From assembly GCA_021604405.1 (NCBI GenBank), contig BQJA01000001.1:52890-116889 (forward strand): DNA of 64,000 nt, read 5' to 3'. This DNA comes from Nitrosomonas sp. (GTDB lineage Bacteria > Pseudomonadota > Gammaproteobacteria > Burkholderiales > Nitrosomonadaceae). The position numbers and the translations under genes are program-made. The notes under the pieces are model-generated. The model had not been told where the DNA came from. It saw only the letters and a list, made by a program, of their open reading frames with translations, and made no database searches. This document shows, one piece after another, positions 9,507 to 16,472 of the stretch (position 1 is the first letter of the stretch; every line of letters begins with the position of its first letter).

Positions 9507-10325
9507 TTACGCATCGGTGCTGTCGTCAGCTGCATCATCGCCTGTGTCATCAGCTGCATCATCACCGGTATCGTCGGCAGCATCATCACCGGTATCATCG
9601 GTGGCGCCATCATCGGTAGCACCGTCTGTACCCGTATCGCCACCATCAGCTGTGCCAGCATCGCCACCATCAGTACCGCCGGCGCCGTCTGTACCAGTTC
9701 CTGTGTCGTCTGTGTCATCCGTTGCCTGAGGAATTGCTGCAACATCTGCCGTACCGACAACAAACCCTTCAGTGAATGATTCTACTGCAAAAGCAGCGTT
9801 AAGTGCCGCAGCAGCTTCCGCTGTTAAGGTCAATGCAACGTCATTAACCGTTAGTTCAGTATCGGATGAAACGGCTATTACGTTCGAAAAGTCCATGTTA
9901 AACAGTGGCGTGCGTCCGGCAAGGCTGTCATTAACGCCAGCCAGTCCTGTCAGTGCAATCGTACTGTTACCTGAAGAATTATCGATAGCGAAATTCAATA
10001 AATCAACAACCGTGGCGCCATCCGCAGAAGTAAATGACAGGCCGCCAGAATGAGAAATATCGCCGATAGACGTTGCCAAATCAATTGCGCCGGCAACGAT
10101 TGGGAAGACGGCAACATTGGCATCATCAATCGTCCCGGGATCGGACGCGTCAACTGTCACGCCAAGTGTTTCGAGTCCTGTTGTGAAGCCCTCATCGAAC
10201 GTTACGGATGTTGTACCGTCAACAAAAACAACGGTCGGTTCCGCGCGCACCTGGCCGACCAAAGCAGCGCACAATGCGAGTGCAAGCGTAAGCTGCAAAA
10301 AATAGCTTAATTTAAAACTTTTCAT
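9507..10325 (-). CDS. Secreted protein with acidic, repetitive Asp/Thr/Gly/Ala C-terminus
   Basis: Signal peptide MKSFKLSYFLQLTLALALCAALVGQVRA; RBS-like taggag upstream; C-terminus ...TGDDAADDTGDDAADDTGDDAADDSTDA. Confidence 0.75.
   Translation of the reverse strand: MKSFKLSYFLQLTLALALCAALVGQVRAEPTVVFVDGTTSVTFDEGFTTGLETLGVTVDASDPGTIDDANVAVFPIVAGAIDLATSIGDISHSGGLSFTSADGATVVDLLNFAIDNSSGNSTIALTGLAGVNDSLAGRTPLFNMDFSNVIAVSSDTELTVNDVALTLTAEAAAALNAAFAVESFTEGFVVGTADVAAIPQATDDTDDTGTGTDGAGGTDGGDAGTADGGDTGTDGATDDGATDDTGDDAADDTGDDAADDTGDDAADDSTDA
9521..9600. repeat. 24-bp in-frame tandem repeat (about 3 copies plus a degenerate one)
   Basis: tgtcgtcagctgcatcatcgcctg / tgtcatcagctgcatcatcaccgg / tatcgtcggcagcatcatcaccgg / tatcatcggtggc...; encodes TGDDAADD on the minus strand. 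Confidence 0.85.
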
Positions 10326-13633: not shown

Positions 13634-15208
13634 ATGCGCAGAATACAATTCGCCATAAAACATAATATCGGTACTAAGTATATTTTTGAATTGCTTGCCA
13701 AGGAATATCCGCGTAATGAAAAACACCAGGTGCGTATTCACCGGCAATATCTCGATTCCTTTGATTGGCGGATGCATCAGAATTCTTATGTTTGCGGGAC
13801 AGATGACAATGATGCGGTAAAAAATTTTTTTCTGGAAAAAAGCGAAACCGGCGAATGTGTATATACGCTTCCATTGAGTGAGACGCCAAAATTTTCGCAG
13901 GACATTCCCCACGCAAAGTGTCGTCGACTTCTTGAAGGTATTCTTGAAATCAGAGCGCTTATAGGTGCCGCATCGGTAACTATCCGGCAAAGACAGTTGC
14001 TTATACTGGATAATCAACATAAGACGCTGATTAGACTTCACGTTGAGAGTTACACGATTCCCGGATGCACCGGTTTACAGGCGATTCCAGGGCGGTTAAT
14101 GGTTTTTCCAGTCAGAGGCTATAAAAAAGTATTGCATGGTGTCGTGCAGTATATTTCTGAGCAGTTAAGACTCAGCCCGGTAGAAACCAATTTGCTGGAT
14201 GAAATACTGGTGGTAATCGGTAAAGTACCTGCCCCTGCGGCGCTCGATGTAACCAAGAAGCTGAGTGGTTCACTTAATACCTGGCAAGCTGCGCAAATTT
14301 TGTTCAGTGATTTGCTAAACGTGATGCAGGCAAATGAGCAGGGCCTGCGTGATGCCATTGATACGGAATTTTTACATGATTATCGGGTTGCATTGAGGCG
14401 CACCCGCTCGCTTTTGACGCAAATTAAACATTTGTTTCCCAGCAAAGAACTCGAGTACTTCAAACAGGAATTTTACTGGCTTGGGTTGATTACCAGCCCC
14501 ACTCGTGACCTTGACGTATACTTGCTGAAATTTGATAATTATGACAAGGTGCTGCCAGTAGCGCTCCGTGATGATCTTGTGCCGTTTCGGCAGTTCCTGC
14601 GTCGACACTGGAAAGCGGAACATACACGTTTATGTGAAGCGCTCAATTCAAAAAGATACCGTAAGCTCATCCGCGAATGGAAACGGATTTTGCAGCGCCG
14701 GAGTATCCAGTCGCCACAGACGTTTAATGCCAAAAATCCCGCTAAACAGGTTGCCAATCAACGAATCTTGAAACTTTATAGGAAAGTTTTAAAGGAAGGC
14801 GGTGCAATTGCGCCGGAATCACCTGATGAGGATTTGCATGAATTACGTAAAACCTGTAAAAAGTTCCGTTACTTAATGGAATTCTTTCAGAGTTATTATC
14901 CCAGTGATCAAATTAAACGTTTGATAAAAAATCTAAAAATGTTGCAGGATAATCTGGGAGATTTTCAAGATCTGTGTGTCCAAACGCAACAACTAAGCGA
15001 TTTTGCACAGCAAATGCAAGATGAAGGGCTGGTTGATACCAAAACGATTATGGCCATGGGTGTATTAGTGCAAAACCTTGTCACCCGGAAAGAAACAGTG
15101 CGGCGTCATTTTAGCGAACGATTCAAGGAGTTTTCCTCGGCGGAGAGAGTGATGGAATTTAAAACAGCATTCAGTTGTGCTAACACATTAGAAGGTGCGC
15201 CTGCATGA
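13634..15208 (+). CDS. CYTH-like/CHAD domain protein
   Basis: CHAD features: FLHDYRVALRRTRSLLTQIKHLFP, LITSPTRDLDVYLLKFD, DLHELRKTCKKFRYLMEFF, LKMLQDNLGDFQDLCVQ. N-terminal ~200 aa divergent CYTH-like (inference). Stop overlaps next ATG. Confidence 0.88.
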   Translation: MRRIQFAIKHNIGTKYIFELLAKEYPRNEKHQVRIHRQYLDSFDWRMHQNSYVCGTDDNDAVKNFFLEKSETGECVYTLPLSETPKFSQDIPHAKCRRLLEGILEIRALIGAASVTIRQRQLLILDNQHKTLIRLHVESYTIPGCTGLQAIPGRLMVFPVRGYKKVLHGVVQYISEQLRLSPVETNLLDEILVVIGKVPAPAALDVTKKLSGSLNTWQAAQILFSDLLNVMQANEQGLRDAIDTEFLHDYRVALRRTRSLLTQIKHLFPSKELEYFKQEFYWLGLITSPTRDLDVYLLKFDNYDKVLPVALRDDLVPFRQFLRRHWKAEHTRLCEALNSKRYRKLIREWKRILQRRSIQSPQTFNAKNPAKQVANQRILKLYRKVLKEGGAIAPESPDEDLHELRKTCKKFRYLMEFFQSYYPSDQIKRLIKNLKMLQDNLGDFQDLCVQTQQLSDFAQQMQDEGLVDTKTIMAMGVLVQNLVTRKETVRRHFSERFKEFSSAERVMEFKTAFSCANTLEGAPA

Positions 15209-15963
15209 AGATTATTGCTTGCTACAATATCAAGGGTGGCATTGGCAAAACGGCAACAACGGTTAATTTAGCCTATCTTGCGTCACAAGAAGGTGCGAAG
15301 ACCTTAGTTTGGGATCTTGATCCACAAGGCGCGGCCAGCTTTTATTTTCGCATTAAACCCAAAGTAAAAAAAGGCGGGAAGGGACTGCTTACTGGTAAAA
15401 AAGAGCTGGATGATGTGATTAAAGGCACGGACTTTGAGAACCTGGATCTTGTTCCGGCAGATTTTTCCTATCGGAATCTCGATCTTGAACTCGATGATTT
15501 TAAAAATGCAGATAAACAAATACGTAAGCTTTTAAAACCGCTGAGGCAGGAATATGATTATGTTTTTCTTGATTGCCCGCCCAGTGTATCGTTAGTGTCG
15601 GAAAATATTCTGGTAGCAGCCGATATCATTATGGTCCCGACGATTCCTACGACATTATCATTGCGTACACTGGATCAGATTATTGAATTTTGCAAAAAAA
15701 TAGGGATTGCGCAATCTAAGATATTGATGTTCTTTTCCATGGTGGATATTCGCAAGAAACTGCACAAAGAGATTCTCGAGATCCCGGCTAAAAATATAAA
15801 GGCGTTAAAAACCAGCATTCCGTATGCAAGTGACGTGGAGAAAATGGGTTTGCATCGCCAGCCGGCACCCGTATTTGCCAGTCAAAGCCGCTCTGTTAAA
15901 GCGTATCAAGCTTTATGGCACGAAACCAAGCGTTATATGGCTGAAGACGTGCGGGGTGAGTGA
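15205..15963 (+). CDS. ParA/MinD-type ATPase
   Basis: Deviant Walker A KGGIGKTATTVNLA, DLDPQGAASFYF, YDYVFLDCPPSVSLVSENIL; ATGA overlaps on both sides. Confidence 0.93.
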   Translation: MKIIACYNIKGGIGKTATTVNLAYLASQEGAKTLVWDLDPQGAASFYFRIKPKVKKGGKGLLTGKKELDDVIKGTDFENLDLVPADFSYRNLDLELDDFKNADKQIRKLLKPLRQEYDYVFLDCPPSVSLVSENILVAADIIMVPTIPTTLSLRTLDQIIEFCKKIGIAQSKILMFFSMVDIRKKLHKEILEIPAKNIKALKTSIPYASDVEKMGLHRQPAPVFASQSRSVKAYQALWHETKRYMAEDVRGE

Positions 15964-16472
15964 TGACACATTTCCTTTTTTTATTACGTCACGCAAAATC
16001 TGACTGGCAAACAGACGCTGCCTCAGACTTTGAACGGCCGCTCTCAGAGAGAGGATTAAGAGATGCGCAAAAAATGGCCCATTGGTTGATTCAACAATCA
16101 AAGATGCCGGCAACGATCGTCAGTTCCCCAGCGTTGCGGGCTTATCAGACAGCGCTTGTTTTCGCTCATGCGATGAAAATACAACCAGGAGACATTAGCT
16201 TCGATAAGCGGATTTACGAAGCGAGCCCTCACCATGTCCTGGAAATAATAAGGTGTTTTCCAGAAACCGGGAAGTCGGTATTGTTAATCGGACATAATCC
16301 CGGGTTTGATTCTTTATTGCAGATGCTTTGCAAAATGACTGAATCGCGTGCTGATGGCAAGTTGATGACAACTGCCGCAATCGCCAGGATTCGTGTGACA
16401 GGCTCTTGGCGGGGGATAAGTGATAATTGTTGTGTGTTGGATGGCCTTACTCGGCCGAAAGATTTGCACTAA
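15960..16472 (+). CDS. sixA: SixA-type phosphohistidine phosphatase (histidine phosphatase superfamily)
   Basis: LLRHAKSDW, FERPLSERGLRDAQKMA, SSPALRAYQTALVF, LLIGHNPGFDSLLQML. Confidence 0.9.
   Translation: MMTHFLFLLRHAKSDWQTDAASDFERPLSERGLRDAQKMAHWLIQQSKMPATIVSSPALRAYQTALVFAHAMKIQPGDISFDKRIYEASPHHVLEIIRCFPETGKSVLLIGHNPGFDSLLQMLCKMTESRADGKLMTTAAIARIRVTGSWRGISDNCCVLDGLTRPKDLH

Follow-up and report, generated by a model that had tools for sequence, protein, structure and literature searches.

Genes and features of the locus

The locus lies within a 64 kb stretch of Nitrosomonas sp. DNA (hereafter the window) and comprises three consecutive genes on the plus strand at 13634-16472, which ORF calls and Pfam place just as originally predicted. 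They encode a CHAD protein, a ParA/MinD-type ATPase and a SixA-like histidine phosphatase, with the following features.

13634-15208, plus strand: CHAD gene (ORF; 524 aa), encoding a TTM-like N-terminal domain and a long CHAD domain
13634-14233, plus strand: N-terminal domain (about residues 1-200), with a CYTH/TTM fold lacking ExExK
14279-15172, plus strand: long CHAD domain (about residues 216-513), 35% identical to CtCHAD, fold rmsd 1.7 Å
14375-14872, plus strand: span of the six polyphosphate (polyP)-contact residues H248, R251, R255, R291, R412 and Y413, by alignment to CtCHAD
15205-15208, plus strand: ATGA stop/start overlap of the CHAD and ParA genes, read from the sequence
15205-15963, plus strand: ParA gene (ORF; 252 aa), a ParA/MinD-type ATPase of the CHAD-linked ParA clade
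15232-15252, plus strand: deviant Walker A motif KGGIGKT, with signature lysine K10 and P-loop lysine K15, read from the sequence
15960-15963 (GTGA, if GTG is the start) or 15961-15965 (TGATG), plus strand: junction of the ParA and SixA-like genes, read from the sequence
15960 (GTG) or 15963 (ATG) to 16472, plus strand: SixA-like gene (ORF; 169-170 aa)

ATGA overlaps had been described at both junctions. The first is present, but the second was a small slip: the letters there read GTGA or TGATG, the latter giving a 1-nt overlap if the ATG at 15963 is the start. Promoters and terminators were predicted no more often than in shuffled sequences. Elsewhere in the window (9507-10325, minus strand) lies a gene for a predicted exported protein with C-terminal Asp/Thr-rich repeats (DDAADDTGDD).

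The product of the first gene matches Pfam CHAD with an E-value of 1.3e-61. The best Foldseek match of its AF2 model (pLDDT 93.7, pTM 0.90) is the CtCHAD-polyP complex from Chlorobium tepidum (6qva), and the sequence alignment of the two proteins spans residues 224-505. Mutagenesis identified H253, R256, R260, R296, R418 and Y419 of CtCHAD as polyP-binding residues (PMC6537752). Their equivalents in the window protein are, in the same order, H248, R251, R255, R291, R412 and Y413, and all six are invariant across an alignment of 54 CHADs. This invariance strongly supports the protein as a predicted polyP binder, as had been proposed.

The N-terminus had been called divergent and CYTH-like. The fold is borne out by the model, which matches the TTM enzymes 7nsf, 2gfg and 5a67 in Foldseek (approximately 10% identity, probability 1.00, E-values of 3e-5 and weaker), but Pfam CYTH has no match in any of the 54 CHAD members. 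In the family profile (residues 3-15 and 36-58) the ExExK motif is absent, and the strand 1 region reads F-x-[LI]-P instead; the domain is probably a non-catalytic TTM. Partners of ParA proteins usually have a positively charged, disordered N-terminus (PMC10241942). Such a basic disordered N-terminus was not found among the 54 CHADs, whose tails reach medians of only 7 and 8 residues and carry almost no net charge; the N-terminal tail has a median length of 7 residues and a median net charge of 0. Contact with ParA would therefore need to be of a new kind. Two further CHADs are encoded in the window's genome, at G000:C26:9583-10281 and G000:C99:2207-2833 (L047 and L046); one is fused to a proper CYTH domain (YgiF-like), and the other stands alone with a CYTH-like gene about 0.7 kb upstream.

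The second gene product matches Pfam AAA_31/ParA with an E-value of 1.2e-40. Its Walker A motif had been singled out as deviant, and KGGIGKT is indeed the deviant form that ParA/MinD proteins regularly carry; K10 and K15 are invariant throughout the aligned family. In the tree, the CHAD-linked ParA clade stands apart from Soj with an SH-aLRT support of 100, and conserved residues specific to the family include R90, R154, K184, H187, E212, R218 and W238. The C-terminus, which in membrane-type MinD bears an amphipathic membrane-targeting extension, falls on inspection of the alignment close after the last helix, as in Soj. One family member (L045, 6104-7696, minus strand; 529 aa) carries a C-terminal extension of approximately 270 residues with no Pfam match; a CYTH-like domain suspected there by eye was discarded, as Pfam gives it no support.

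The original prediction also reported no neighbouring ParB, and held that a nearby ParB or parS would mark a conventional partition locus. Both were looked for and are absent. The single ParB match in the window's genome (G000:C31:12158-12442) adjoins its own Soj, and a search for parS gave one match with three mismatches in 64 kb against 0.32 expected, with none above chance.

Conservation and limits of the CHAD-ParA linkage

A ParA scan of 85,462 genomes yielded 80 best ParA loci in named genomes. CHAD lies directly upstream of ParA in 57 of these, distributed over seven phyla (Pseudomonadota, Actinomycetota, Acidobacteriota, Chloroflexota, Thermodesulfobacteriota, Myxococcota and Dormiibacterota), although for the many metagenome bins among the 57 the phylum assignment can be trusted no further than the binning. 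The pair occurs in the named isolates Nitrosomonas marina, Methylotuvimicrobium buryatense and Sedimenticola selenatireducens; L067 is from M. buryatense 5G, an established laboratory strain. At 36 of these 57 loci the stop and start of the two genes share a 4-nt overlap. Among the 23 ParA loci without an adjacent CHAD, four are at or near a contig edge and one has a truncated CHAD (L064), leaving 18 testable exceptions. Every one of these 18 genomes has a matching CHAD elsewhere (17 at E <= 1e-120 and one, a fragment, at 7e-23). Chance cannot explain this linkage, although the loci are related to one another. The adjacency thus reaches well beyond close relatives, to which its confinement would have counted against the original prediction.

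In L064 (Nitrosomonas sp. Nm51, 1238-1663) only the N-terminal part of CHAD remains beside an intact ParA and SixA-like gene, through either true loss or assembly error. In the Methylococcales loci L078-L140, the CHAD-linked ParA has moved away from CHAD, which stays elsewhere in the genome, and now lies beside glycogen phosphorylase, MgtE or D-Tyr-tRNA deacylase.

Closer to the window, ParA matches in 61 genomes of relatives fall into two groups: a close family with 43-100% identity, and ordinary full-length ParAs whose identity does not exceed about 33%. The close family has 13 full-length members besides that of the window, and a fragment in G018. CHAD is directly upstream of every close-family ParA that has enough contig, and the genes further out vary. 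Across the 37 genomes of the genus the two genes are present or missing together: 14 genomes carry the pair and 22 lack it entirely, ParA never occurs without CHAD, and CHAD stands without ParA in a single genome, whose contig ends inside the CHAD gene. The evolutionary distances of CHAD and ParA correlate (Mantel r 0.775, against at most 0.26 in shuffles), a figure confounded by shared ancestry.

The linkage does not extend to all relatives of this ParA. A sample of 399 genomes of the phylum was searched with thresholds of E<=1e-50 for ParA and E<=1e-30 for CHAD. ParA was found in 69 genomes, and CHAD in 47 of those 69 as against 26 of the other 330, a difference confounded by phylogeny. A deep ParA clade in this sample is without adjacent CHAD, and 11 of the 69 ParA-positive genomes (E<=1e-50) have no CHAD by Pfam. 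The wider ParA family is therefore not bound to CHAD everywhere, and the claim of a module applies to the CHAD-linked ParA clade. A ParA score alone was rejected as a marker of linkage, as the search at E<=1e-50 also picks up the orphan clade. The loci of that deep clade (L167-L191) are single ParA genes whose 1.5 kb flanks show no recurring operon partner.

The accessory third gene and other neighbours of the pair

CHAD, ParA and SixA had been predicted to form a three-gene unit, which does not hold across loci: elsewhere the third gene encodes a NUDIX or CYTH protein, or there is none. The core is the CHAD-ParA pair, to which the SixA-like gene is an optional addition. Among the window and its relatives, six loci have a SixA-like third gene, the window's being one of them; four, all from the same genus, have NUDIX in that place and one has CYTH. 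In the distant set, a SixA-like gene adjoins the pair in 11 of 57 loci, located downstream, upstream on the same strand or upstream and divergent, and many CHAD-ParA loci are without one. One locus has the order CHAD-ParA-CYTH-NUDIX (L164) and another encodes a NUDIX-histidine phosphatase fusion (L124). PPK1 is found near the pair in L066 and L130, and PPK2 in L066; an initial guess that placed PPK1 and PPK2 at L109 was refuted, L066 being the true locus. Other neighbours are an H+-pyrophosphatase (L092), PhoR (L084) and MgtE (L102, L105), and ppk1 is present in the window's own genome. Phosphoanhydride chemistry is the theme common to the recurring neighbours.

The window's third gene product matches Pfam His_Phos_1 with an E-value of 4.7e-11 and has a catalytic RH pair (R9-H10, in LLRHAKSDW) together with R59 and H111, counted from the ATG at 15963. 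Against NCBIfam TIGR00249 it scores 55.5 bits, below the curated equivalog cut-off of 74.5, so the label "SixA" was too strong. Membership of the histidine phosphatase superfamily and a SixA-like character stand; assignment to SixA proper does not. A same-genus relative holds a second, unlinked SixA-like copy (G006:C1:811570-812073) with 60% identity to the window protein.

What might such an enzyme act on? PPK1 works via a phosphohistidine intermediate. E. coli SixA dephosphorylates Ndk (PMC12934123), as does mycobacterial MutT1, a protein with NUDIX and RHG domains, for NDK (PMC11784022). Since both act on Ndk, either Ndk or PPK1 is a reasonable guess for the substrate of the SixA-like protein, and action on a phosphohistidine is possible. 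A fuller version, which we put forward only tentatively, is that the SixA-like protein removes phosphohistidine from Ndk or from the PPK1 intermediate and so tunes nucleotide-polyP exchange, with NUDIX proteins either serving as equivalents or cutting dinucleotide polyphosphates. The recurrence of SixA-like genes in three arrangements among the distant loci as well as in Nitrosomonas-type loci, the NUDIX genes of the four same-genus loci and L164, and the fusion in L124 are consistent with this proposal. However, the window protein falls below the SixA cut-off, the SixA-like gene is missing from many CHAD-ParA loci, and in MutT1 it is the NUDIX domain, not the RHG domain, that acts on NDK (PMC11784022). 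The proposal bears on the third gene alone and is no rival to the favoured explanation of the pair given below.

Candidate roles of the pair and known systems

The original prediction, in which the ATPase distributes polyP granules with CHAD as its adaptor and SixA acts on a phosphohistidine, is as a whole partly supported. The reading that we favour, with modest confidence, is that CHAD and ParA form a dedicated module for polyP positioning or partition, with CHAD holding polyP and either recruiting a granule-positioning ParA or stimulating it. CHAD would coat or nucleate polyP via its basic pore and would engage ParA through a CHAD surface or through the non-catalytic TTM-like domain, the latter being the proposed ParA-facing part of the protein. 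ParA would alternate between an ATP-bound dimer attached to a matrix (the nucleoid being the likeliest) and a detached state, such that polyP granules could be spaced and inherited as carboxysomes are with McdA. The third gene product, SixA-like here and NUDIX or CYTH elsewhere, may be an accessory phosphohydrolase of phosphoryl or nucleotide-polyphosphate turnover. For positioning we count the CHAD-ParA linkage, the co-occurrence within the genus, the polyP-contact residues, the neighbours, the distance correlation and the signature lysine; against it, the lack of a basic CHAD tail, the acidic residue at position 210 of ParA (see below), the CHAD-less ParA clade and the shared ancestry behind the statistics. 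A broader proposition, which we hold more loosely and regard as roughly balanced, is that this is an ATP-driven system of granule positioning and inheritance, either predating the divergence of several phyla or passed among them as one unit, in which a dead TTM domain has been reused as an adaptor for the ATPase.

The main rival, in our judgement rather unlikely, makes ParA a regulatory or assembly ATPase of polyP metabolism. By shifting CHAD from one state to another it would govern the nucleation of granules, the recruitment of PPK1 or the breakdown of polyP, and granules would not be moved along the nucleoid. This reading is modelled on BcsQ, an ATPase serving the cellulose machinery, to which profile searches relate the window's ParA weakly. 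Conservation and neighbours fit this reading just as well, and so does a CHAD protein without a ParB-like basic tail. The residues expected to contact DNA point both ways. Position 210, mostly D or E in the family, aligns with an invariant arginine of Soj, a known DNA contact in the B. subtilis protein, which suits a regulator; yet position 183, aligned with a second DNA-contact arginine of Soj, is R in 80% of members and forms a conserved basic cluster with the new residues K184 and H187. The solved structures nearest to ParA likewise tell against a regulator, being DNA-segregating ParA/Soj proteins and not BcsQ, with McdA among only the distant matches. In favour of a regulator is the Streptomyces CHAD protein PptA, which affects polyP use (PMC8003754).

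A static tether is improbable. Here ParA and CHAD would anchor granules to the nucleoid, with ATP needed only for loading and unloading and no dynamic partition, in the manner of AlgP, a histone-like protein that sets granule spacing in P. aeruginosa and for which no ATPase is known (PMC13052382, PMC9239181). All of the genomic evidence is equally compatible with such an anchor, but a ParA-class ATPase would be costly in a static role, and the catalytic and signature lysines are invariant. The reading as a conventional plasmid or chromosome partition ParA that neighbours CHAD by chance, to which membership of the Soj-like superfamily and the naming of one Acidithiobacillus homolog as a plasmid partition protein (PMC10892726) might lend weight, is largely refuted and extremely improbable given the conserved linkage to CHAD in seven phyla, the overlapping genes, the separation of the clade from Soj and the absence of ParB and parS nearby, the only ParB being at C31 beside Soj.

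Part of this arrangement has been seen before. A folD-ppk-parA-CHAD cluster, with CHAD adjacent to parA and ppk, is reported in one genus, Acidithiobacillus (PMC10892726, PMC6416229), and is probably the same module. One of these studies reads the ParA as plasmid partition (PMC10892726), and the other labels it a chromosome partitioning protein and interprets the CHAD protein as a CYTH protein that makes cAMP (PMC6416229). Adjacency of CHAD and parA in Acidithiobacillus is thus already known; in the open-access papers searched, none was found that recognizes the pair as a widespread module or as a polyP positioning system. The Streptomyces ppk-pptA(CHAD)-nudix operon resembles the present loci in combining CHAD with NUDIX and ppk, but no ParA is mentioned and its CHAD protein has another architecture (PMC8003754). 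CtCHAD (6qva, 6qv7 and 3e0s; Q8KE09) is similar to the window protein in having a long CHAD domain after approximately 206 residues, the six polyP-contact residues and a fold within 1.7 Å; only its CHAD part was crystallized.

Hardly any proteins are known that place or share out polyP granules in bacteria, and the CHAD-ParA pair is a named and testable candidate. The one protein named for polyP granules in a 2025 review is AlgP; the same review describes the granule-positioning proteins of Caulobacter as unidentified and leaves undecided whether ATP is spent (PMC13052382). AlgP controls granule spacing in Pseudomonas aeruginosa, but it is a DNA-binding protein with neither an ATPase nor a CHAD domain. 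Positioning by CHAD and ParA would supply an orphan ParA clade with a likely cargo, and the widespread CHAD proteins would gain a cell-biological job beyond binding polyP.

The closest functional parallel to the proposed positioning module is the McdAB system of carboxysomes. The partner there is McdB as opposed to CHAD, McdA structures are only distant matches to the window's ParA, the CHAD protein has no basic disordered N-terminal tail and the cargo would be a polymer granule. What the two have in common is a ParB-less ParA-class ATPase with the signature lysine fold, encoded beside a partner that is linked to the cargo, by prediction in the case of CHAD.
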